In this document: piece after piece, positions 288 to 16,075 of the stretch
Layout of the letters: every line of letters begins with the position of its first letter
Position numbering within the stretch: the stretch's first letter is position 1
Assembly (NCBI GenBank): GCA_017551925.1
Contig: JAFZKA010000124.1
Location: 1 to 41,102 of the forward strand
Direction: 5' to 3'
DNA: 41,102 nt
DNA from: Bacteroidaceae bacterium
Lineage (GTDB): Bacteria; Bacteroidota; Bacteroidia; Bacteroidales; Bacteroidaceae
Translations under genes and position numbers: made by a program
Notes under the pieces: model-generated
What the model saw: only the letters and a program-made list of their open reading frames with translations
Database searches by the model: none
What the model was told of the DNA's origin: nothing

Positions 288-647
288 TTACATGTAATCG
301 CCTATATCGTATCTATATGGCATTTGAAAGATTTCGCCATTTAGACGGCGGTGATTTTCAAAACGTACGCCCTCTATTCTGATATATGAATCTGTTGCAG
401 GTTGCCACTTTCCGTATTTGGCTGAGTATGCCAGCTCATCGGCATTGAAACTGACGGAGTAGACATCGGTTAATCCGTGCTTGTTGATGTAATCAATACA
501 AGTCTGAACAAGGATTTCCTGGAGTTCCTTGATATGCTCTTTCTGCGTGATACCAGGGATGGGTGAGTCCTCAAGTCTTTCTATAATTGGGTTCTCTTTC
601 CATTTCTTGTCAAATTCTTCTAATATGCGCGTTTTCCTCTTTTTCAT
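288..647 (-). CDS. Hypothetical protein, 119 aa, third gene of the leftward operon 1724-288
   Basis: Unrecognised, hydrophilic, no signal peptide or membrane segment. The N-terminus is basic (MKKRKTR) and the middle looks helical. An in-frame ATG at 689 would overlap the preceding gene. The start at 647 is preferred because AGGAAG lies just before it and it falls after the upstream stop at 664. It follows two other unknown genes on the same strand with gaps of 14 and 16 bp, so it is probably co-transcribed with them from the operator-linked promoter near 1750. Function unknown. Confidence 0.65.
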   Translation of the reverse strand: MKKRKTRILEEFDKKWKENPIIERLEDSPIPGITQKEHIKELQEILVQTCIDYINKHGLTDVYSVSFNADELAYSAKYGKWQPATDSYIRIEGVRFENHRRLNGEIFQMPYRYDIGDYM

Positions 648-663
648 TGTTCTTCCTTTGTTT

Positions 664-1011
664 CTATTCAGATTTATTCGCAATTTCAACTAAATAATCA
701 TAGAAGGCATCTATGTCACTTACGTTGTGCTCTTCTCCTTTTTCTGTCCAATATATGGCTTTGTTTTGTGGTGATTCTTCCATCCACCATTCCAGATCAT
801 CATCGATTCCAAGTTTGTTGAATTCCAGATTGAACAGAAGGCAGAAAGCATATCTTACAGCTGTCCACCAGGGAGAGATGTAAAAGGGCACATTTTGTGC
901 TTGCTCATCATCCCATATGAGTTTAAACGCATCATTTACTTTGTCTTCTTTTTCCTGGGCGTTATTTATGATTGCCATTAATTCTTTGAATTGTTCGCGG
1001 GTTGGCGTCAT
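664..1011 (-). CDS. Hypothetical acidic protein, 115 aa
   Basis: Unrecognised small protein, second gene of the leftward operon, 14 bp after the gene ending at 1026. It is acidic and rich in Trp and Asp/Glu. It has an aromatic central stretch (SPWWTAVRYAFCLLFNLEF) that looks like a buried amphipathic segment rather than a clear membrane helix. A WW pair recurs in LEWWMEES. No catalytic motif or signal peptide is visible. Its position between two other unknown proteins suggests a shared role, which I cannot name. Confidence 0.65.
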   Translation of the reverse strand: MTPTREQFKELMAIINNAQEKEDKVNDAFKLIWDDEQAQNVPFYISPWWTAVRYAFCLLFNLEFNKLGIDDDLEWWMEESPQNKAIYWTEKGEEHNVSDIDAFYDYLVEIANKSE

Positions 1012-1025
1012 AATAGTATTTGTTT

Positions 1026-1724
1026 TTATTTTACATTTCTGAAACTTGTTATTTTGTCGAAACCAGCTGATTCCAGTTTCTCAACGTCAGTGCGTGTATC
1101 GGTAAAAGGCTTATCTTTGAGAGAAGACAGGTAATCATATAGGGCCTGCCATATATCGGCTGGAGGTATTATTTTGGTAATGAATGTGTCGGTTAGAATT
1201 GGATTCTCTACACGATGTAATTGTGTGTTGTCAATCTCTATCCATCGGACTTCATCGGTGGTCCATCGCCAATCTTTAACTTGACATAGAATAATGCACA
1301 TTGGTACATTTGAGTATCGTTTTTGAACATCATTCAAGGTGTCAATTAGTCTATATTCCACATGAGCATTATCCTGTTTTTTGTCTTCAATCCATCGTTC
1401 AACTTCAAAACGATAGTGGGTGTGGCCGACCTCAAGAACAAAGTGATATACATCTCCCTCTTTCCATTTTTTGCTAAACTTATTCTTTGCGGCTTTTGCT
1501 TCACGATATCTTATAATACTTTTTAATTCCCAGTATCGTTTCTCTGACAAGGGTTTATCGGTAAACAAGATTTTGCTACTGAAGTAATGATCCAATCCTT
1601 GTAGCATAATATTGCCAGAATTCAGTGTGACGGAACCTCGACGATCATAAACCACCAGATTATCAATGCCATAGATGCCGGAGATGTAATCGTAATAATC
1701 TTTCTTGTTGTCAATGATTTTCAT
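1026..1724 (-). CDS. Hypothetical protein, 232 aa, first gene of an operator-controlled operon
   Basis: Cytoplasmic-looking protein of unknown function. The N-terminal region contains KDYYDYISGIYGIDNL and VVYDRRGSV, and the C-terminus ends in FDKITSFRNVK. An open frame extends upstream to 1853, but those codons run through the 31-bp palindrome (1774-1804) and the probable promoter (-7 box at 1747-1754). I therefore start at the ATG at 1724, which gives a leader of about 16 nt. The same architecture, palindrome then 19 bp then -7 box then start, precedes the RNA ligase and metallophosphoesterase genes. That suggests this protein belongs to the same regulon. No family assignment is made. Confidence 0.7.
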   Translation of the reverse strand: MKIIDNKKDYYDYISGIYGIDNLVVYDRRGSVTLNSGNIMLQGLDHYFSSKILFTDKPLSEKRYWELKSIIRYREAKAAKNKFSKKWKEGDVYHFVLEVGHTHYRFEVERWIEDKKQDNAHVEYRLIDTLNDVQKRYSNVPMCIILCQVKDWRWTTDEVRWIEIDNTQLHRVENPILTDTFITKIIPPADIWQALYDYLSSLKDKPFTDTRTDVEKLESAGFDKITSFRNVK

Positions 1725-1746
1725 TTGTCGGATTATTGTTATCCTG

Positions 1747-1804
1747 CAAAAATCGGAGATGTGAACGGGGCCACCAAATCTTTGCAAACCTTGCAGATAT
1801 TTGG
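1747..1804 (-). promoter_or_regulatory. Operator-promoter copy 1, leftward (31-bp palindrome plus -7 box)
   Basis: The palindrome at 1774-1804 has outer arms CCAAATCT / ATATTTGG and inner arms TGCAAA / CTTGCA. It carries two substitutions relative to copies 2 and 3. Reading leftward, its end supplies TTTGG as a -33 element. After exactly 19 bp comes GATTTTTG (1747-1754), one mismatch from TAnnTTTG. The start codon at 1724 follows. The 15 bp next to the palindrome (TGGCCCCGTTCACAT in the leftward direction) are identical to those in copy 3. Confidence 0.75.
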
Positions 1805-1824
1805 AGGGGAGTTGGTGGCTGCAA

Positions 1825-1832
1825 TATCTTTG
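1825..1832 (+). promoter_or_regulatory. Rightward -7 box facing palindrome copy 1
   Basis: TATCTTTG matches TAnnTTTG perfectly and lies 20 bp after the rightward TTTGG end of the palindrome at 1774-1804. Transcription from here would read into hipBA, about 85 bp downstream, in addition to the nearer hipB promoter. Confidence 0.55.
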
Positions 1833-1857
1833 TATATTTAAATAATCAAACATAATG

Positions 1858-1912
1858 GTTGAATATTAAACTATTATTGCTATATTTGCATCGGAATAGT
1901 TTAAGATTGAAC
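1858..1912 (+). promoter_or_regulatory. hipBA promoter with two matching palindromic operator candidates
   Basis: The -7 box TATATTTG lies at 1881-1888. Two 14-bp palindromes of the shared form GTTkAAnnTTrAAC flank it: GTTGAATATTAAAC (1858-1871) over the -33 region, and GTTTAAGATTGAAC (1899-1912) at or just after the expected transcription start. Their starts are 41 bp apart, close to four helical turns. This layout fits autorepression by the HipB dimer, as is known for hipBA loci; binding itself is inferred. Confidence 0.6.
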
Positions 1913-1916
1913 TGTT

Positions 1917-2264
1917 ATGGAAGATGTATATATGCTATCAGATGCGATGATTTCTACTAGAATTGGTGAGCATCTGAAGGCGATTAGGTTAAAGCAGAAT
2001 ATTACGCAGCAGAGCCTGGCGGAGGAGACTGGGGTGTCGTTGTCTTCGGTTAAGAAGATAGAGAAGGGTGAGATTGGCTCGTTTGATTCGCTGATGCGGG
2101 TGCTACGTATGCTGGGTAAGTTGGATGTGTTTCTTCCATTGATTGAAGAGGAACAGTTGAGTCCGAGTGAGTACTATGAATTGGTACAGGCTGCGGGCGC
2201 TCATAAACGCAAACGTGCGGTGGGGAAATCAACTAAAATGGATAAGGGGAAATCGACATGGTAG
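1917..2264 (+). CDS. hipB: HipB-like antitoxin, XRE-family repressor
   Basis: 115-aa DNA-binding protein with an N-terminal helix-turn-helix of the Xre/Cro type. It covers about residues 14-70 and includes IGEHLKAIRLKQNITQQSLA and GVSLSSVKKIEKG. In HipBA modules this protein neutralises the HipA kinase and represses its own promoter. Its last 7 bases overlap the start of hipA, a typical toxin-antitoxin coupling. Paired GTTkAAnnTTrAAC palindromes lie just upstream. ATG at 1932 is an alternative start; 1917 keeps the full helix-turn-helix and a leader of about 20 nt. The C-terminal tail is basic (KRKRAVGKSTK). Confidence 0.85.
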   Translation: MEDVYMLSDAMISTRIGEHLKAIRLKQNITQQSLAEETGVSLSSVKKIEKGEIGSFDSLMRVLRMLGKLDVFLPLIEEEQLSPSEYYELVQAAGAHKRKRAVGKSTKMDKGKSTW

Positions 2265-3538
2265 ATGTTGCAAGAGTTAATATGTTTGGGCTGCCGGTTG
2301 GTACGTTTCGCTGGGATGAGCGTTATGAGGTGGCTCAGTTTGAATATGACCACAGTTTTGTAGGGCGGGGGTTGGAGCCTTCGCCATTGATGATGCCAGT
2401 TAGGGAGGGCCGTGTGTATTCATTTGCCGGCTTGAACCGTGAAACCTTTATGGGCCTGCCTGGTATGCTGGCGGATTCGCTTCCGGATACTTATGGTCGT
2501 GCTCTGTTTGACCGTTGGCTGGCGTTGACTGGACGCACAAGCGGCAATCCGATAGAGAGTTTGTGCTACCTTGGTAAGCGTTGCATGGGGGCACTGGAGT
2601 TTGAACCGGCAATTGATAGTGGATACAATCCGCAGCAGCTGTTCGAGATTGACTCTCTGGTGGATGTTGCGCGTGAAGCGCTGTCTGATAAGGCGTCATT
2701 TGGTGTGAATCTGAATGACGACAGGAAGGCTGCTATTGCCGAGATTTTGCGATTGGGTACATCGGCAGGCGGACAGCGGGCAAAAGCCATCATAGCATAT
2801 AACAAGGCCACTGGCGAGGTCCGATCCGGACAAATTGAAGCACCGGCAGGTTTTGACTACTATATAATTAAACTGGACGGTGTGTCGGCAAAGGCAGGCT
2901 TCCACGAAACTGAGAACTATGGACGGTTGGAGTATTCTTTCTATAAGTTGGCGACAGCTTGCGGGATTGAGATGACTGAGTGCTCGCTCATTGAGGAAAA
3001 CGGGCGTGCACATTTTCTGACACGTCGCTTTGATAGAGAAGGCGGACGTAAAATACATATGCAGACGCTATGTGGACTGGCACATTATGATTTCCACTTA
3101 CTTAGGGGATATTCATACGAGCAGGCATTTAATGTGATGCGGGCATTGAGACTGCCTTATTCATCGGCCCGTGAGATGTTCCGGAGAATGGTGTTTAACG
3201 TTGTGGTTCGCAACCAGGATGACCATACTAAAAATATTTCGTTCCTTATGGGCGAGGATGGAAAGTGGCGGCTTTCACCGGCTTACGATATGGGTTATGC
3301 GTATAATTCTCAAGGAGACTGGACGGCACAGCACCAGATGTCCGTTAATGGTAAGTTTGACGATATTTCACGTGCGGATCTGCTGGCGTTTGGTAATGCA
3401 AATGGCATAAAGGATGCATCGGAGGTGATTGATCAGGTATGTGAGGTCGCTGCCCGTTGGCCGGAGATGGCCCGGAAGGCTGGTGTTCCAGCAGAGATGA
3501 TTAATGCTATATTGAAGGATTTTGTCCTATCTCTATAG
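2258..3538 (+). CDS. hipA: HipA-like serine/threonine kinase toxin
   Basis: 426 aa, close to the usual length of full HipA (about 440). HipA kinases phosphorylate translation factors (glutamyl-tRNA synthetase in E. coli), causing growth arrest and persistence. The N-terminal HipA domain is followed by LGTSAGGQRAKA, corresponding to the Ser-containing loop. Then come LTRRFDREGG, the catalytic NQDDHTKN at about residues 319-326 and the metal-binding LSPAYDMG at about 338-345. These key residues are intact, so the toxin should be active. ATG overlaps the hipB stop (ATGGTAG). The gene converges on the small gene at 3562. Substrate is not predictable from sequence. Confidence 0.9.
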   Translation: MVDVARVNMFGLPVGTFRWDERYEVAQFEYDHSFVGRGLEPSPLMMPVREGRVYSFAGLNRETFMGLPGMLADSLPDTYGRALFDRWLALTGRTSGNPIESLCYLGKRCMGALEFEPAIDSGYNPQQLFEIDSLVDVAREALSDKASFGVNLNDDRKAAIAEILRLGTSAGGQRAKAIIAYNKATGEVRSGQIEAPAGFDYYIIKLDGVSAKAGFHETENYGRLEYSFYKLATACGIEMTECSLIEENGRAHFLTRRFDREGGRKIHMQTLCGLAHYDFHLLRGYSYEQAFNVMRALRLPYSSAREMFRRMVFNVVVRNQDDHTKNISFLMGEDGKWRLSPAYDMGYAYNSQGDWTAQHQMSVNGKFDDISRADLLAFGNANGIKDASEVIDQVCEVAARWPEMARKAGVPAEMINAILKDFVLSL

Positions 3539-3561
3539 ATGGTTCCCATAGATCAATGTGC

Positions 3562-3903
3562 TTAGCCCCACGGCTCATCGTCGGTATAGTGATAATCTTT
3601 CATGAGGTGCAGGATCTTCCGCTTTCGTTTGGGATAGTCAAGGGATGGGGCATTTAGGATGTCCATAGCCTTGAGAAATAACTCGCGGGAGATTGGGACA
3701 AAGTCTGCAAAATGCCCTTCTGTGATTGTAGCCATCGGGAAAACGGACGTAGAAACGGAGTCATTGCCAAGAATATGCCAGCGAACTTTGCAAATGTCGC
3801 GGGTGCCGATGATTTCTTCCACCTCCAGTACTTCCAGAAGTATAGGATCCAGGCCGCGGATTTTCCGTCGCTGCCAGAATGTGTCGTTTGCTTTAATTTG
3901 CAT
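3562..3903 (-). CDS. Hypothetical protein, 113 aa, downstream of RNA ligase
   Basis: Unrecognised soluble protein, 42 bp downstream of the RNA ligase stop on the same strand and probably co-transcribed with it. The central part (ILLEVLEVEEIIG, KVRWHILGND) suggests a small beta-rich fold. A basic patch (YPKRKRKILHL) lies near the C-terminus. No catalytic motif can be named. Its position in a two-gene unit with the ligase under palindrome copy 2 makes a partner or accessory role plausible, but this is inference. Confidence 0.65.
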   Translation of the reverse strand: MQIKANDTFWQRRKIRGLDPILLEVLEVEEIIGTRDICKVRWHILGNDSVSTSVFPMATITEGHFADFVPISRELFLKAMDILNAPSLDYPKRKRKILHLMKDYHYTDDEPWG

Positions 3904-3945
3904 ATTGTCTTTGAATATGATGATTTGTTCAGATATGGTGTAGTG

Positions 3946-4959
3946 TTACGGCATTCCAATAAGGTCTTTGATAAAGGTTATGGCACGTTTGGAGATAAGT
4001 CCATTGAGCGTCTTTTGCTCTAGTTTGGCCAGATTATTATAGTCCTCAGTATGCTCTTTGAGTAGGTCCTCCAGTACATCTTTGGCCAGGAGGCCACTGA
4101 CACGTCCTAAATCCTTGGGAAAGGATACCTCACCGATGTGGCTCTTGACGTTGTCCAGTCGTGGGGTGGTGAAGTAGGCTTCAGCCAGGGCGAACAGCTC
4201 TGCTACTTCGATTGGCACTTGTTTCGGAACCTTTGGCGCATGTTTGATACCTTTCTTTTCTGCAAATCGGGCGTTTTTGCTCTTAATGATTATGCGTGAG
4301 CCGTTGGGGATGTATAGAGGTTCCTTTGGACGTATAACAATGCCCTCGCAGATGTTATCGTCGATTTCAGGCAGATTGTAGTGCTTGTAAATCTTACTTG
4401 GGAAAGAGTTTGGGTAGGCCAGACATTCTTGGAGAGTACCTTCAAAGAGGGTTTCGGCGTAGAAGATATTGGCTTCAGAGAAGATCCTGTTTGCTAAATC
4501 AACATCCAGGTAGAATGATTCATCGGTGGTGTATACATATATGTCAAAGCCGTAGAAGTCGTGTCCTGGATGGTAATAAACACCTTTTTGGATGGCCGAC
4601 ATGGCTCCTATGCGTTTGATGTCTTTGTGAGGGTAGGCTCCACCGAACATTTCACCATAGACAATGATGGAGGTAAGGTTAGAGAAACACGCCTTAACCA
4701 TATTATATACCTTGAAAATACGCTCACGATAACGATCGGCCAATTCCTGCCACTGGTAGAAGTTCTCATCATCAGTCACTATGGCGGTGCGCTTGGCAAA
4801 TTGGATTTGCTCTCCGTCGCATAGGAAACTGCAGTTTGAACCATGTACTTTTTCTTGTACTACAAAACGGGCTTCGGCAGGAGTGTGCTCGCGGACCTTC
4901 TCCATAAATGCCTCGTCGAAAGAATTCTCGATAGAACTGTATTTTTTGAATGTCAGCAT
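3946..4959 (-). CDS. Rnl2-type ATP-dependent RNA ligase
   Basis: 337-aa nucleotidyltransferase that should join RNA 3'-OH and 5'-phosphate ends through lysyl-AMP and RNA-adenylate intermediates. The motifs are in order: motif I EKVHGSN with the nucleotidyl lysine K37, motif III IVYGEMFGG (about 99-107), motif IIIa FYGFDI (135-140), motif IV EGIVIR (205-210) and motif V IIKSKN (224-229). A helical C-terminal domain follows. The frame opens at 5019, but the first 20 codons run through the palindrome and promoter. ATG at 4959 is preferred, since its -7 box TACTTTTG is at 4979-4986. The gene is divergent from the 196-aa gene at 5089 and shares palindrome copy 2 with it. The physiological RNA is unknown; repair of cleaved tRNA or other RNAs is a reasonable inference. 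Confidence 0.85.
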   Translation of the reverse strand: MLTFKKYSSIENSFDEAFMEKVREHTPAEARFVVQEKVHGSNCSFLCDGEQIQFAKRTAIVTDDENFYQWQELADRYRERIFKVYNMVKACFSNLTSIIVYGEMFGGAYPHKDIKRIGAMSAIQKGVYYHPGHDFYGFDIYVYTTDESFYLDVDLANRIFSEANIFYAETLFEGTLQECLAYPNSFPSKIYKHYNLPEIDDNICEGIVIRPKEPLYIPNGSRIIIKSKNARFAEKKGIKHAPKVPKQVPIEVAELFALAEAYFTTPRLDNVKSHIGEVSFPKDLGRVSGLLAKDVLEDLLKEHTEDYNNLAKLEQKTLNGLISKRAITFIKDLIGMP

Positions 4960-4978
4960 AGTTGTTTGTATTTGTTGG

Positions 4979-5063
4979 CAAAAGTATGCTGACGTTATGT
5001 GGGGCCCAAATCTTTGCAAAGTTTGCAGAGATTTGGAGGGGGCTAAAGGCAGTTTTACCTTTG
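4979..5063. promoter_or_regulatory. Operator-promoter copy 2: palindrome centred between two divergent promoters
   Basis: The 31-bp palindrome at 5006-5036 has perfect outer arms CCAAATCT / AGATTTGG and inner arms TGCAAA / TTTGCA around a central G, with one mismatched pair. Leftward, TACTTTTG (4979-4986) lies 19 bp away and serves the RNA ligase. Rightward, TACCTTTG (5056-5063) also lies 19 bp away and serves the gene at 5089. Each outer end reads TTTGG outward and can act as the -33 element. Confidence 0.8.
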
Positions 5064-5088
5064 TGCTAAAAGAACTTCAAAACAAAAA

Positions 5089-5679
5089 ATGGGACGTTAT
5101 ATCAGTACTGGAATTGTATACTTCTATTTGTTTGAAAAGTCAGAAGTGGAACGGGCGTATGAGAGACGCTCTTGGAAAAAGAAGCCTTTTTCAGAACTTA
5201 AGCAAGATATAATCAATCAACTGTTTCCAGAGATCTATGATTATTGGGAAGATGAAAATGTTATATTCTTCTATTTATCGGATTCTTTACGTGGAGATGA
5301 TATTGCCTCAATTCTACAGGCATATTATTCCTTATTTGGTGAGAATGTAGATAACAATAAATATATCAAAGAAATTCCAGATCTTTTGAATGGAAAAACA
5401 ATTAAAGAGGCTTATGAGATTGCTAAGAACAAACCATTGCGTCTGTATAGGGAAATAACGATTGGATATAATTATGGATTCTATGCTTATCCATTGGTGA
5501 TAGATGGCTTTAGGACTTTCTATAAAGTACGTGCATCAATATTAATGATTGATAGTTCATCAGCCAAGACTATTACAGAGGATAGCCTTATATCATATGA
5601 TTCCTTTACTGAACTACTTCGCTACAGGTTGAAACCGGATAAACTCGCAGATTCAATGCTTATTTTCCTGTCACCATGA
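5089..5679 (+). CDS. Hypothetical protein, 196 aa, divergent from the RNA ligase
   Basis: Unrecognised soluble protein rich in Tyr, Phe and Asp/Glu. No signal peptide, membrane segment or known motif is evident. The beginning (GRYISTGIVYFYLFEK) looks like a beta strand, and the body alternates acidic and aromatic stretches. ATG at 5089 lies about 25 nt after the -7 box TACCTTTG (5056-5063), which fits a short leader. It shares the bidirectional palindrome with the RNA ligase, so the two should respond to the same signal. It converges with the metallophosphoesterase gene. Confidence 0.65.
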   Translation: MGRYISTGIVYFYLFEKSEVERAYERRSWKKKPFSELKQDIINQLFPEIYDYWEDENVIFFYLSDSLRGDDIASILQAYYSLFGENVDNNKYIKEIPDLLNGKTIKEAYEIAKNKPLRLYREITIGYNYGFYAYPLVIDGFRTFYKVRASILMIDSSSAKTITEDSLISYDSFTELLRYRLKPDKLADSMLIFLSP

Positions 5680-5705
5680 CATAATATGCCTAATCACTTT
5701 ATTGT

Positions 5706-6473
5706 TTATAATTCTATCGCTTTATAGGGATCAAATCCGTTTGTGAGGTGTTCTTTGTAGTAGACGTAACCGAGTTGGTTACATATGATTTTTGTGTTTC
5801 CGATAATGGCGTCAATGTTTGTATGTGAATGACCGTATATCCACGCATCGATTCGGCTGTCTGCAATGAAGCCTCCCAATTCAGTTGCAAAGGCTCCGTT
5901 CAAAGCAGATTCTTTATGTTGCTTTGCTACTGCTGATTGTGTAGGCAGATGATGGGTGACTACAACTATATGCTTGGCGGTACTCTGTTGGACTGCTTGC
6001 TTCAAGAAACTGAGACATTTCTCATGTTCCAGATTGAAATCATCGGGTGTGAACCGATGGCCGCTGTATAGGATTTGCCTGAAATCATTCATTCCTCTTA
6101 GCACATAGAACATATCAACTTCCGGTATCTTTGACCAAAGGGTGGTGAGGATGAAATCCACATCATCTATGCGCACTACTTTATTGTAATAGTATCCGAC
6201 ATTTTCCCTGAGCATCCACTGCCAACTATCTCCACGCTTTGTAACATCACCGTTGTCGTAGAATTCATGGTTGCCTGGCACTAACAATACTTGTCGGAAG
6301 TTCTTGGACGCCCAGTTCCAGAATCGGTAATGCGGTACAACGGTGTCATGTAAGTAAAACGAATCTCCGGCTAAAACCAGTATATCACCCTTAACCTCAA
6401 AATCATTGTTCTTTATGAACCTGGAATTGTCTATGAACTCCAGATGGAGGTCACTCATGTATTGTATTTTCAT
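5706..6473 (-). CDS. Calcineurin-like metallophosphoesterase
   Basis: 255-aa member of the binuclear metallophosphoesterase superfamily. All metal-binding motifs are visible: SDLHLEF (D8, H10), LAGDSF (D37), PGNHEFYD (N68, H69), VVTHHLP and YGHSHTN. No signal peptide, so it acts in the cytoplasm, probably on nucleotide or nucleic-acid phosphates; the substrate cannot be read from sequence. ATG at 6473 lies 20 bp after the -7 box GAAATTTG, which is placed 19 bp from palindrome copy 3. The same operator upstream of an RNA ligase suggests joint action, for example trimming of RNA end phosphates before ligation (inference). Confidence 0.85.
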   Translation of the reverse strand: MKIQYMSDLHLEFIDNSRFIKNNDFEVKGDILVLAGDSFYLHDTVVPHYRFWNWASKNFRQVLLVPGNHEFYDNGDVTKRGDSWQWMLRENVGYYYNKVVRIDDVDFILTTLWSKIPEVDMFYVLRGMNDFRQILYSGHRFTPDDFNLEHEKCLSFLKQAVQQSTAKHIVVVTHHLPTQSAVAKQHKESALNGAFATELGGFIADSRIDAWIYGHSHTNIDAIIGNTKIICNQLGYVYYKEHLTNGFDPYKAIEL

Positions 6474-6493
6474 TGTTACTATTGATGTTTATG

Positions 6494-6551
6494 CAAATTT
6501 CGACCATGTGAACGGGGCCACCAAATCTTTGCAAAGTTTGCAGAGATTTGG
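6494..6551 (-). promoter_or_regulatory. Operator-promoter copy 3, leftward
   Basis: The palindrome at 6521-6551 is identical to copy 2 across all 31 bp. After 19 bp lies GAAATTTG (6494-6501), one mismatch from TAnnTTTG, then the metallophosphoesterase start at 6473. Unlike the other copies, no -7 box is seen on the rightward side at the matching distance. Confidence 0.75.
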
Positions 6552-6617: not shown

Positions 6618-7001
6618 TTACTTATTACGGCCGATGCGATAGATTCCATCGGGTTGGCGCATTATAATGTAGTGTTGTGCTTTGCGGACTCCTAAAGCGG
6701 TGATGAACTTGCGTTTTATTCGGGAGATGTTGGTGTAGAAGATTTTTTTGGATTCTCCACAGAGAGATTCTATTATATTTAACATCAGTTGTTTATTATC
6801 AAAGACTGATTCATGTGCGTACAGTTTATACAGTTCTTGCCAGTGGATGGGGAGGGTATCGGCCTGGATACCTTCGGGGTGATTCAGAAAGAAGAGGTAG
6901 ATAGTTCTTTCCATCGGGTTCAGATAGATTTGCCTATCATCATCGGGCAGGTGAAATTCGCCTGGGTGGGGGCCGGGGATGATTAGATTTTGGGTTTGCA
7001 T
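6618..7001 (-). CDS. Winged-helix-like small protein, putative regulator
   Basis: 127 aa. The core LNPMERTIYLFFLNHPEGI resembles the start of the OmpR/PhoB-type C-terminal winged helix (L-x-P-x-E-x-x-x-x-x-x-x-L-x-x-x-P-G). The end (NISRIKRKF then HYIIMRQPDGIYRIG) resembles its recognition helix and wing. A related segment occurs in the divergent gene at 7157, so the two are probably distant paralogues. There is no receiver domain. ATG at 7001 is preferred over the frame opening at 7052, because a GACATTTG -7-like box lies upstream of it. A DNA-binding role is inference; it could be the regulator acting at the nearby palindromes. Confidence 0.65.
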   Translation of the reverse strand: MQTQNLIIPGPHPGEFHLPDDDRQIYLNPMERTIYLFFLNHPEGIQADTLPIHWQELYKLYAHESVFDNKQLMLNIIESLCGESKKIFYTNISRIKRKFITALGVRKAQHYIIMRQPDGIYRIGRNK

Positions 7002-7056
7002 ACGGACTGTTTCTTTTTGGGACAAATGTCTCGTTGGAAATCGGCAATTCAAAGTG

Positions 7057-7072
7057 ATTACAAGCTTGTAAT
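7057..7072. promoter_or_regulatory. Perfect 16-bp palindrome between divergent paralogues
   Basis: ATTACAAGCTTGTAAT is a perfect inverted repeat, and partial symmetry continues outward. It lies in the divergent intergenic region between the genes starting at 7001 (leftward) and 7157 (rightward). This is a natural place for a dimeric regulator encoded by one of them to bind. Confidence 0.5.
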
Positions 7073-7117
7073 TGTTTGGAAAAGTTGATTGTTTTTATAT
7101 GGAAACCGGTCTCAGAG

Positions 7118-7156: not shown

Positions 7157-7756
7157 ATGATGATACGTGGAAACATTGAGTCACAACTGATGTGGCGGTT
7201 GCTCTTTCAGGGAGCGCAAGTTGAGTTACAGGAACCTGCTGCTGATTACAGCGGCATGCTGGACTGTATGGAGGCGGCGGAACTGTTGACGTTGATGGAA
7301 AAGGTGCAAAAGCGTTTGCATGAACTTGGTTTGGAGGCGGAATGTCAAAAAGAAGAGGCTGAGCCGGTTGAATTGTTCATTGACGAACACTACATGATTC
7401 GTATGGGCGGTGCCGATGGAATGATACTCCGGTTGCGGCCGTTGGTTAAAACATTGTTTATCTTGTTCTTGAAGCATCCTGAAGGCATTGTTTTGAAGCA
7501 ACGGGACTGTTATCGGGAGGAGTTGGAGAGAATATATTCCACCGTTAATCCTAATACTGACCGTGATGATGTCAAGGCCAGGATTGCGCGTCTGGTGGAT
7601 CTGCAGGACAATTCTTTCAGCGAGAAGGCATCGGTCCTGAATGCACGGCTGGGGGAGTTGCTGCCGGAGGGGATTGCAGAAAATTATAAAATTCAGGGTT
7701 ACAACGGCTGCCCCAGAAGGATTATATTGAATCCGCTGCTGGTGCACTGGGAGTGA
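7157..7756 (+). CDS. Protein with winged-helix-like domain, 199 aa
   Basis: The C-terminal half contains LRPLVKTLFILFLKHPEGI followed by REELERIYSTVNP and a helix KASVLNARLGELLPEGI. This matches the layout of the domain in the divergent 127-aa protein. The N-terminal 80 residues are helical (GMLDCMEAAELLTLMEKVQ) with no clear motif. The frame opens at a TTG at 7076, but the promoter-like elements at 7118-7149 lie inside that extension. ATG at 7157 or 7160 is therefore preferred. It could be a transcription regulator or a protein-interaction paralogue; function unknown. Confidence 0.65.
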   Translation: MMIRGNIESQLMWRLLFQGAQVELQEPAADYSGMLDCMEAAELLTLMEKVQKRLHELGLEAECQKEEAEPVELFIDEHYMIRMGGADGMILRLRPLVKTLFILFLKHPEGIVLKQRDCYREELERIYSTVNPNTDRDDVKARIARLVDLQDNSFSEKASVLNARLGELLPEGIAENYKIQGYNGCPRRIILNPLLVHWE

Positions 7757-12598: not shown

Positions 12599-13078
12599 AT
12601 GTCCGAAGACAGAAAGCAGGAGGGCCTGACCGCCCTTGGTGGGAAGACCACGTATTCAAATACTTACAATCCCGATGTACTGGAGGCCTTTGAGAACTTG
12701 AACAGGGAGAATGACTACTGGGTTCGTTTCAACTGCCCTGAGTTTACTACTCTTTGCCCCATTACCGGACAGCCGGACTTTGCAGAGATACGCATAAGCT
12801 ATATCCCTGACGTGAAGATGGTGGAGAGCAAGTCTCTCAAACTCTACCTTCACAGTTTCCGCAATCATGGCGGGTTCCATGAGGACTGCGTGAACCGCAT
12901 AATGAAGGACCTTATCAAACTGATGGACCCCAAATACATTGAGGTTACCGGTTTTTTTGTTCCGCGCGGTGGCATTTCAATCTATCCCTACACCAACTAT
13001 GGCCGTAAGGGCACCAAGTATGAGGCTCTTGCCGAGCAGAGAATGTGCAATTGGGGACTGTCCCCAATTGCACAGTAA
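12599..13078 (+). CDS. queF: NADPH-dependent 7-cyano-7-deazaguanine reductase QueF
   Basis: 159-aa single-domain (type I) QueF, which reduces preQ0 to preQ1. The catalytic cysteine is C53 in [11 protein letters not shown] with the catalytic Asp at 60. The QueF motif [10 protein letters not shown] and the FHEDCVN segment are present. It follows the transporter by 3 bp. The last ten or so codons ([10 protein letters not shown]) are encoded by a hairpin repeat inserted at 13044-13074, so the native C-terminus has probably been replaced. The catalytic core is unaffected. Confidence 0.93.
13044..13074. repeat. Perfect hairpin repeat in the 3' end of queF
   Basis: The 14-bp arms TGTGCAATTGGGGA / TCCCCAATTGCACA around CTG are perfect inverted repeats. 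The repeat overlaps the end of the queF frame and supplies its last codons. A second copy follows at 13083-13111. The GGGGACTGTCCCC core is REP-like. No REP-associated transposase is in the window. Confidence 0.8.
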
Positions 13079-13082
13079 AAAC

Positions 13083-13111
13083 GTGCAAAAGGGGACTGTC
13101 CCCAATTGCAC
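13083..13111. repeat. Second, imperfect copy of the GGGGACTGTCCCC hairpin repeat
   Basis: The pairs GTGCAA / TTGCAC and GGGGA / TCCCC are kept, with AA facing AA as a 2-bp internal mismatch. It lies 8 bp after the first copy and 8 bp before the start of the next gene. Confidence 0.75.
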
Positions 13112-15952: not shown

Positions 15953-16030
15953 GGTGCCCGTAGTTCAGTTGGTTAGAGCGTCAGATTGTGGTTCTGAATG
16001 TCGTGGGTTCGAGTCCCACCGGGCACCCCA
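15953..16030 (+). tRNA. tRNA-His (anticodon GTG)
   Basis: The acceptor stem is GTGCCCG / CGGGCAC with the additional 5' G (15953) opposite discriminator C, a hallmark of tRNA-His. The anticodon stem is TCAGA / TCTGA with loop TTGTGGT, giving anticodon GTG. The T arm is GTGGG TTCGAGT CCCAC. The CCA end is encoded (16028-16030). Confidence 0.97.
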
Positions 16031-16075
16031 AAAGCAGAAAAAGAGGTCAACTTGACCTCTTTTTCTGCTTTCGGG
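16031..16075 (+). terminator. Terminator after tRNA-His, perfect 20-bp inverted repeat
   Basis: The arms 16031-16050 and 16052-16071 are perfectly complementary (AAAGCAGAAAAAGAGGTCAA and its reverse complement) around a single base. The repeat is directly adjacent to the CCA end. The right arm is T-rich. The following 190 bp up to 16268 hold further GC-rich short inverted repeats (such as GTTCACTACGTGAAC) but no gene. Confidence 0.75.

Follow-up and report, generated by a model that had tools for sequence, protein, structure and literature searches.

A 31-bp palindrome on the −33 promoter element marks a proposed small regulon in Bacteroidales, with a winged-helix protein as candidate regulator

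The DNA considered here, called the window, is a 41,102-nucleotide contig of a Bacteroidaceae bacterium (GenBank assembly GCA_017551925.1, contig JAFZKA010000124.1, positions 1 to 41,102), which carries three copies of a 31-bp palindrome in front of small transcription units. Comparison of genomes supports the view that this palindrome serves as an operator and coincides with the −33 element, in many cases that of divergent promoters, and the existence of a regulon built on it can be proposed with high confidence. The best candidate for its regulator, with moderate confidence, is a small protein encoded at 6618–7001, on account of its co-occurrence with the palindrome and of a related palindrome in its own promoter. 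A new element is the presence of tRNA-like families behind the operator, one of which combines a constant body with a changing anticodon.

Palindromes and promoter boxes in the window

The features of the three sites are as follows.

1774–1804, palindrome copy 1, imperfect, differing from copies 2 and 3 at three positions
5006–5036, palindrome copy 2, at a divergent promoter
6521–6551, palindrome copy 3, identical to copy 2 over 31 bp
1747–1754, minus strand, −7-like box GATTTTTG of copy 1, leftward
4979–4986, minus strand, −7 box TACTTTTG of copy 2, leftward
6494–6501, minus strand, −7-like box GAAATTTG of copy 3, leftward
5056–5063, plus strand, −7 box TACCTTTG of copy 2, rightward, at a gap of 20 bp, leading into the open reading frame (ORF) 5089–5679
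1825–1832, plus strand, −7-like box TATCTTTG of copy 1, rightward, at a gap of 21, on the HipBA side

The positions of the palindromes are those of a preliminary description made from the sequence of the window, whose term 'near-perfect' suits copies 2 and 3 (28 of 30 self-complementary positions) but not copy 1, which has fewer than 26 and falls under the cut of 26/30 that defines a near-palindrome here. At this cut the window holds five near-palindromes, two of them copies 2 and 3, against one in all of 20 first-order Markov sequences. Taken by itself the outer-arm pattern says little, three hits at three mismatches being reached in 2 of 100 shuffles as well. The strength of the signal lies in the inner arms and in recurrence in other genomes, not in the loose outer-arm pattern.

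The Bacteroides promoter consensus consists of TAnnTTTG at −7 and TTTG near −33 (excerpt of PMC7366714). In the window, the TTTG of the palindrome arm stands 20 bp from the leftward box, and the spacing of 19 bp between palindrome and box, as described earlier, is found at all three leftward boxes. These are all TAnnTTTG-like, the full TAnnTTTG being present only in TACTTTTG. Start codons had been placed 20–23 bp past the box; the measured distances to ATG are 22, 19 and 20 bp for copies 1, 2 and 3, so that copy 2 falls just short of this range. Copies 1 and 3 do have 15 bp of spacer in common, TGGCCCCGTTCACAT. The rightward boxes at copies 2 and 1 had been overlooked; with TACCTTTG added to its leftward box, copy 2 resembles a divergent promoter. 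Copy 1 is taken as intergenic since, in the gene to its left, the family match starts at residue 44 of the longer frame (hence ATG at 1724); that longer frame, extending to 1853, would cross the palindrome.

Two further repeats were seen in the window. A GC-rich palindrome, in two copies (AATTGGGGACTGTCCCCAATT and a variant) at 13044–13107, is of a different type, and a perfect 31-bp palindrome at 16036–16066, just behind tRNA-His (15954–16030), is probably a terminator.

Distribution and promoter register

The palindrome is not dispersed in its own genome, an assembly of 2.6 Mb in 127 contigs with 97% completeness. When up to three mismatches are allowed, the outer-arm pattern occurs at 10 places per strand and a reversed control pattern at 8, but the real copies are three (0, 0 and 1 mismatch), all inside the window and all in promoters; the other seven matches have three mismatches each and lack the inner arms. 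The genome-wide search that the preliminary description had called for thus leaves its coordinated small regulon standing, while its wording of 'unlinked small operons' is too strong, all copies being within 5 kb in this genome.

The full motif was found in 5 of the 301 genomes of a family sample, all from the own genus, in 5 of the 37 genomes of that genus, and in one of the 393 of an order sample, namely the own genome. A scan of a collection of 84,980 species for the exact core returned 20 stretches, 19 from Bacteroidales records and one from Clostridiales; a ruminant is named for 12 of the 20 records. The Clostridiales match (L027; loci are given L numbers and genomes G numbers) has different outer arms and no boxes, and was treated as chance. 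No exact core motif occurred in the viral contigs scanned. In total, 44 palindrome sites were collected from 19 whole-searched genomes, the own one and 18 others. Two weak sites with five mismatches (L014 9427 and L094 3515) are not counted among the 44, and one with four (L089 6543) served for pair spacing only.

Across these sites the register between palindrome and box is conserved. In 46 of 88 flanks the TTTG of the arm is followed by another TTTG after a gap of 24 or 25 (34 and 12), while the next commonest gap accounts for 7 flanks and shuffled flanks give 0.82. At least one flank is in register at 37 of the 44 sites and both are at 9; near-miss boxes such as TATCTTTT and TAACTTTA are found at several of the other seven sites. 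A stricter count, in which the 23 flanks beside a palindrome-like neighbour were dropped by a filter that also removed some box-bearing flanks, leaves 39 of 65 in register, with TA in 29 of the 39. The earlier proposal that the palindrome arm provides the −33 TTTG therefore agrees with a −33/−7 register kept in other species, and a dedicated small regulon whose operator would overlap that element is well supported by comparative genomics.

Palindromes also occur in neighbouring pairs. There are eight such pairs, and in every one the distance is exactly 72 bp, which corresponds to about seven turns of the helix, with a similar spacer. Six pairs have outward boxes on both ends and two (L023 and L086) on one end, L089 being judged by eye.

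L015, 2860/2932
L019, 7090/7162
L023, 2007/2079
L086, 11898/11970
L089, 6471/6543
L094, 13307/13379
L095, 5568/5640 and 8247/8319

Beyond the palindrome there is, by eye, little conservation except a start resembling AGGGG and a far flank resembling AAATCA. On the promoter-less side of some palindromes a similar AAATCA...AATAATT-like stretch is present (L024 5981–6010, L030 1750–1780, L083 116–146 and L088 16278–16308), which is perhaps an upstream promoter element.

The candidate regulator

Between copy 3 and a divergent gene lies the putative regulator with its own palindrome; it is one of the local winged-helix proteins that had been named as possible binders in the preliminary description.

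6618–7001, minus strand, candidate regulator, predicted stand-alone OmpR/PhoB-type winged helix, 127 aa
7050–7079, CCAAACAATTACAAGCTTGTAATCACTTTG, a related palindrome that lies in the winged-helix gene's promoter and is proposed as its auto-operator
7157–7756, plus strand, divergent paralogue of 199 aa, with a winged-helix region homologous to 6618–7001 (hhalign probability 97.7)

Strong orthologs of the 127-aa protein are present in 17 of the 19 palindrome genomes. Within the genus they occur in all five palindrome genomes versus one of the 32 others (G311, near a contig end), weak paralogues being found in five more genomes; among palindrome genomes reached through contig hits the count is 12 of 14. 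In the order sample, searched with a wider model and at most 10 candidates scored per genome, the only strong match is in the own genome, with one weak match in the 392 others. Fisher tests of co-occurrence give 1.4e-5 and 6e-27, both ignoring kinship. In G317 the gene stands on another contig than the palindrome, and in G326 it is about 10 kb from the nearest strong site.

AlphaFold2 predicts a confident winged helix (pLDDT 86.9, pTM 0.81) of the OmpR/PhoB effector type, with N-terminal strands, three helices and a C-terminal hairpin, over nearly the whole chain. The structural matches listed for the model are effector domains of OmpR/PhoB response regulators and ToxR/CadC-type domains, with modest scores. 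No receiver or sensor domain was found beside the winged helix, and no Pfam family exceeds its cut-off.

The palindrome at 7050–7079, missed in the preliminary description, has counterparts elsewhere. Upstream of the genes of the 127-aa family, 13 of 21 have a palindrome of the TTACAAGCTTGTAA type, many flanked by CCAAA or CCAAG, and four have one of the CCAAATTTTGGCAAGCCTTGCCAAAATTTGG type (G318, G326, G327 and G329); neither type was found within 170 bp in G319, in G321 or for two remote paralogues of G329. The pattern CCAAA-N6-CAA-N2/3-TTG is common to the CCAAATTTTGGCAAGCCTTGCCAAAATTTGG type, to the TTACAAGCTTGTAA type of the window lineage and to the regulon palindrome. In G318, a CCAAATTTTGGCAAGCCTTGCCAAAATTTGG-type palindrome and a regulon palindrome form a 72-bp pair.

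Genes behind the palindromes

An RNA ligase, a metallophosphoesterase and proteins of no known function had been listed as regulated genes, and all of these are seen behind copies 1 to 3.

3946–4959, minus strand, T4 Rnl2-type RNA ligase with motifs KVHG, EGIV and KSK, the first gene left of copy 2
3562–3903, minus strand, 113-aa protein, second gene of the ligase unit
5089–5679, plus strand, 196-aa protein, first gene right of copy 2, with a relative in L023
5706–6473, minus strand, calcineurin-like metallophosphoesterase, first gene left of copy 3
1026–1724, minus strand, first gene left of copy 1, coding for a 232-aa protein (phrog_4243)
664–1011, minus strand, 115-aa protein, with relatives directly behind a palindrome in G119 and G321
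288–647, minus strand, 119-aa protein, encoded by the gene that ends the copy 1 unit

The ligase has the KxxG, EGxV and KxK motifs, and its RNA_ligase and Rnl2 C-terminal domains pass the Pfam cut-off; against TIGR02307 it scores 171 bits, below the cut-off of 197. The 113-aa protein has a relative directly behind a palindrome in G318 and another near one in G230. A PADLOC search with 10 proteins gave weak or partial matches only. Between copies 1 and 2 the window also encodes a HipB/HipA-type toxin-antitoxin pair (1917–3538; HipA domains above cut-off) with an inverted repeat of its own around 1864–1908, as judged by eye.

Across all sites the commonest first genes are metallophosphoesterases of three kinds (10 flanks, one with a near-miss box only), four of whose frames look shortened. 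Other recurring first genes encode DUF7873 (5), a 546-aa family that matches no Pfam entry (3), DUF6557 (2) and a family with 'LLQIE.RSGARLNR' (2), and single cases include the Rnl2 ligase, an AAA ATPase and the 232- and 196-aa proteins of the window. For each phosphoesterase kind, DUF7873 and DUF6557, at least one member is above the Pfam cut-off and the rest were assigned by BLAST clustering; the automatic cluster F0/C1 is a mix of two families and not one family. In G330, one palindrome is followed by genes for, among others, a phosphoesterase and a Thg1 homologue.

G319 has a second Rnl2-like gene (49% identity over 227 residues), which does not lie on the contig that carries the palindrome of that genome. 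It is divergent to a relative of the long winged-helix paralogue (L077 452–1141, minus strand, and 1267–1860, plus strand), and upstream of it, without outer arms, stand a CGACCTTTG box and two inner cores TGCAAGCCTTGCA with a spacing of 26 bp. Ligase, core motif and winged-helix gene therefore recur as a trio, in changed form.

tRNA-like RNAs tied to the motif

In related genomes, two tRNA-like families stand behind the palindrome.

L018 6521–6593, plus strand, CAU tRNA-like gene directly behind a palindromic promoter
L094 14940–15011, minus strand, CAU tRNA-like gene directly behind a palindromic promoter
L088 7378, minus strand, start of a CAU-gene remnant
L095 5529, minus strand, start of a CAU-gene remnant
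L012 9999–10070, minus strand, DUF7873-linked tRNA-like RNA, UGU
L014 11965–12036, minus strand, DUF7873-linked tRNA-like RNA, UGU
L023 3317–3390, plus strand, DUF7873-linked tRNA-like RNA, GCA
L024 3710–3784, plus strand, DUF7873-linked tRNA-like RNA, UGCA
L088 14959–15032, minus strand, DUF7873-linked tRNA-like RNA, AGU
L091 7770–7843, minus strand, DUF7873-linked tRNA-like RNA, GCA

The gene with a CAU anticodon, found in G319 and G326, starts 10–11 nt past the −7 box. Searched against the 19 palindrome genomes (E ≤ 1e-3), the G326 sequence matches only itself and that of G319, and thus no other tRNA of those genomes closely resembles it. Remnants with an alike start stand, by eye, at the same place in G329 and G330; the L095 remnant is a 5′ part only, followed by a phosphoesterase frame.

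The second family, with the body GGCCGCGTACCTTAG..., comes after DUF7873 in six genomes. DUF7873 is whole and the first gene behind the palindrome in five of them (G147, G230, G323, G325 and G329), while in G324 only a 95-residue piece remains before the tRNA-like gene. Mean column identity of the six sequences is 92%, yet their anticodons are UGU in G147 and G230, GCA in G323 and G325, AGU in G329 and UGCA, in an 8-base loop, in G324. Such a combination of one body with several anticodons is at odds with an ordinary tRNA. A covariance model of this RNA detects it in 6 of 20 genomes at 99.7–109 bits, the next best score being 49.5. The own genome has no strong hit, so that the tRNA-like part lies outside the window. 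In G147 and G230 the tRNA-like gene is followed by a DUF6904-like gene, and a DUF6904-like C-terminal fragment (24.7 bits, cut-off 27), cut by the contig start, occupies 2–271 of the window.

The exact 5′ tRNA-like pattern was absent from the viral contigs scanned, where a narrow peptide-pattern search also gave no confirmed relatives of the ligase or of DUF7873. Relatives of DUF7873 are present in 15 Lak megaphage records at less than 60% identity (45–46% among the 10 matches listed); for example, L014 12346–13152 (minus strand) is 46% and 45% identical to L126 6001–6783 and L127 6001–6783 (both plus strand), and no tRNA-like gene of this kind stands beside the relatives in the two Lak regions examined. 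DUF7873 relatives were found neither in plasmids nor in a 148-genome sample of the phylum (own genome included), and in one of 14 control genomes. Its structure model is unusable (mean pLDDT 39.5).

Proposed mechanism and alternative explanations

Binding, sign of control, inducer and purpose are proposed here on the basis of the motif, register, co-occurrence, predicted fold and gene families observed. The palindrome, at about −61 to −30 and centred near −45, would supply the −33 TTTG of a Bacteroidetes housekeeping promoter and, in many cases, that of a second, divergent promoter as well. Its most likely binder is the 6618–7001 protein, acting as one dimer or as two, and the protein may also control its own gene via the related palindrome. 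The position of the site would suit a repressor and a class II-like activator equally; repression, by a bound protein that blocks the polymerase, is slightly favoured because the site extends over −33 and the −33 and −7 boxes look sufficient alone. As the small protein lacks a sensor domain, relief is expected to depend on a partner, which may be the divergent paralogue 7157–7756. The controlled genes would form a changing cargo with a recurring theme of RNA-end processing and tRNA-like RNAs. This model as a whole, from the 31-bp operator and its binder to self-control and changing cargo, appears reasonably probable from the sequence comparisons.

Several observations weigh against parts of it. 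The 127-aa protein was not detected in the palindrome genomes G324 and G328, and linkage explains part of the co-occurrence, the gene being often in the island. As to a uniform RNA-repair purpose, Rnl2 occurs in 1 of 37 genus genomes, the own one alone, and among the loci compared it recurs only in G319 and Thg1 only in G330; many targets have no known function and the cargo is heterogeneous between genomes.

It is conceivable, though doubtful, that the palindrome is the operator of the same regulon for another binder, either encoded elsewhere, or the 199-aa paralogue, or the HipB-like protein 1917–2264. The two palindrome genomes without a detected 127-aa protein speak for this, as do G324, which has a (shortened) long paralogue and no short one, and the HipB relatives that adjoin a palindrome in the window and in G318. 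However, HipB relatives are in no other genome among the loci compared, the long paralogue lacks the conserved SRIK helix, and in the loci, which were only partly scanned, no equally widespread DNA-binding gene was noticed. A hairpin or terminator in the transcript, suggested by the strong inverted repeat, is scarcely credible for an element that precedes the predicted starts (those of both directions at 9 of 44 sites) and that carries the −33 element in its arm.

Mobility offers two other explanations. The 15 bp of spacer common to copies 1 and 3 give the impression of promoter modules copied within the genome, and 72-bp pairs with similar spacer recur, as a dispersed repeat or mobile promoter module without dedicated regulator would have it. 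Repetitive extragenic palindromes (REP) or miniature inverted-repeat transposable elements (MITE) would, however, be expected in many copies unrelated to promoters, which are found neither in the own genome nor at the 44 sites. With only three real own-genome copies within 5 kb, a register kept in other species and, by eye, little conserved outside the palindrome, this explanation is very unlikely; the few copies and the kept TTTG register are the reason for preferring an operator on −33. Recombination sites for cargo swapping, of a cassette- or inversion-like kind, would account for the strong cargo differences between genomes and the fixed 72-bp pairs, and integrase-family genes adjoin the palindrome in L030 and lie at a distance of about 5 kb in L018. 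Most sites are nevertheless upstream of promoters in strict register, no common integrase was noticed in the other loci, and the promoters of pairs lie outside and not between the palindromes, which makes this highly improbable as well.

Under the preferred operator model, Rnl2, phosphoesterases, Thg1 and tRNA-like RNAs may point to RNA-end processing, a purpose put forward as hypothesis only because the cargo is heterogeneous. More speculatively, and with low probability, the islands could be inducible bait-and-repair systems against tRNA-cleaving toxins or defence nucleases, combining, under a single palindromic operator, tRNA mimics with mending or trimming of RNA ends by Rnl2, phosphoesterases and Thg1. 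If so, the fixed body with exchangeable anticodon (UGU, GCA, AGU, UGCA) would track local nucleases, and the question would arise of decoy or replacement tRNAs and RNA repair being used against tRNA damage by bacteria, and not by phages alone. RNA ligase and phosphoesterase genes are now linked to a tRNA-like family with changing anticodon, and operator, candidate regulator and targets form a testable unit for mostly function-unknown genes of uncultured Bacteroidales.

Comparison with known systems

No published account of this regulon was found in the open-licence PMC literature. Bacteroidetes SOS repressors belong to the S24-peptidase family and recognize GGA-N5-TCC and CTAA-N5-TTAG motifs, and they resemble the present system in palindromic operators and self-control (excerpt of PMC8565304). 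The palindromes, compared with these by reading, lack either core, and an SOS operator was rejected.

The effector domains of NsrR, AdeR, CovR, SaeR and PhoB have the predicted fold of the window protein over nearly its whole chain, and PhoB sites overlap −35 much as the palindrome overlaps −33. The window protein differs in having no receiver domain and in its putative site, a 31-bp palindrome; OmpR/PhoB sites are typically direct repeats.

Phage tRNA genes with altered anticodon loops have been proposed to escape anticodon nucleases (part of PMC10264068) and are alike in their unusual loops. Here the genes are chromosomal, stand behind an operator and combine one body with several anticodons. 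Bacterial gene sets that link RNA ligase and Thg1 are described among Thg1/polynucleotide kinase/RNA ligase neighbourhoods (excerpt of PMC2904730); in the present case Thg1 (G330) and Rnl2 (own genome, G000, and G319) are in the loci of different genomes, and no polynucleotide kinase family was named in the proteins scanned.

The nearest known analogue is the RtcR-controlled repair operon rsr-yrlBA-rtcBA of Salmonella, in which the tRNA-like domain of YrlA has been suggested to compete for an anticodon nuclease (excerpt of PMC7790460). Among 11 island proteins, Pfam named no RtcB, RtcA or RtcR, the rest of the genome not being searched for them. Both systems would join RNA ligase, end-processing enzymes and a tRNA-like noncoding RNA under a dedicated regulator. 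The window ligase is of the Rnl2 type and not RtcB, the cargo varies between genomes, and RtcR is a sigma-54 activator with a CARF domain, whereas the candidate in the window is a small predicted winged helix of the OmpR/PhoB type.

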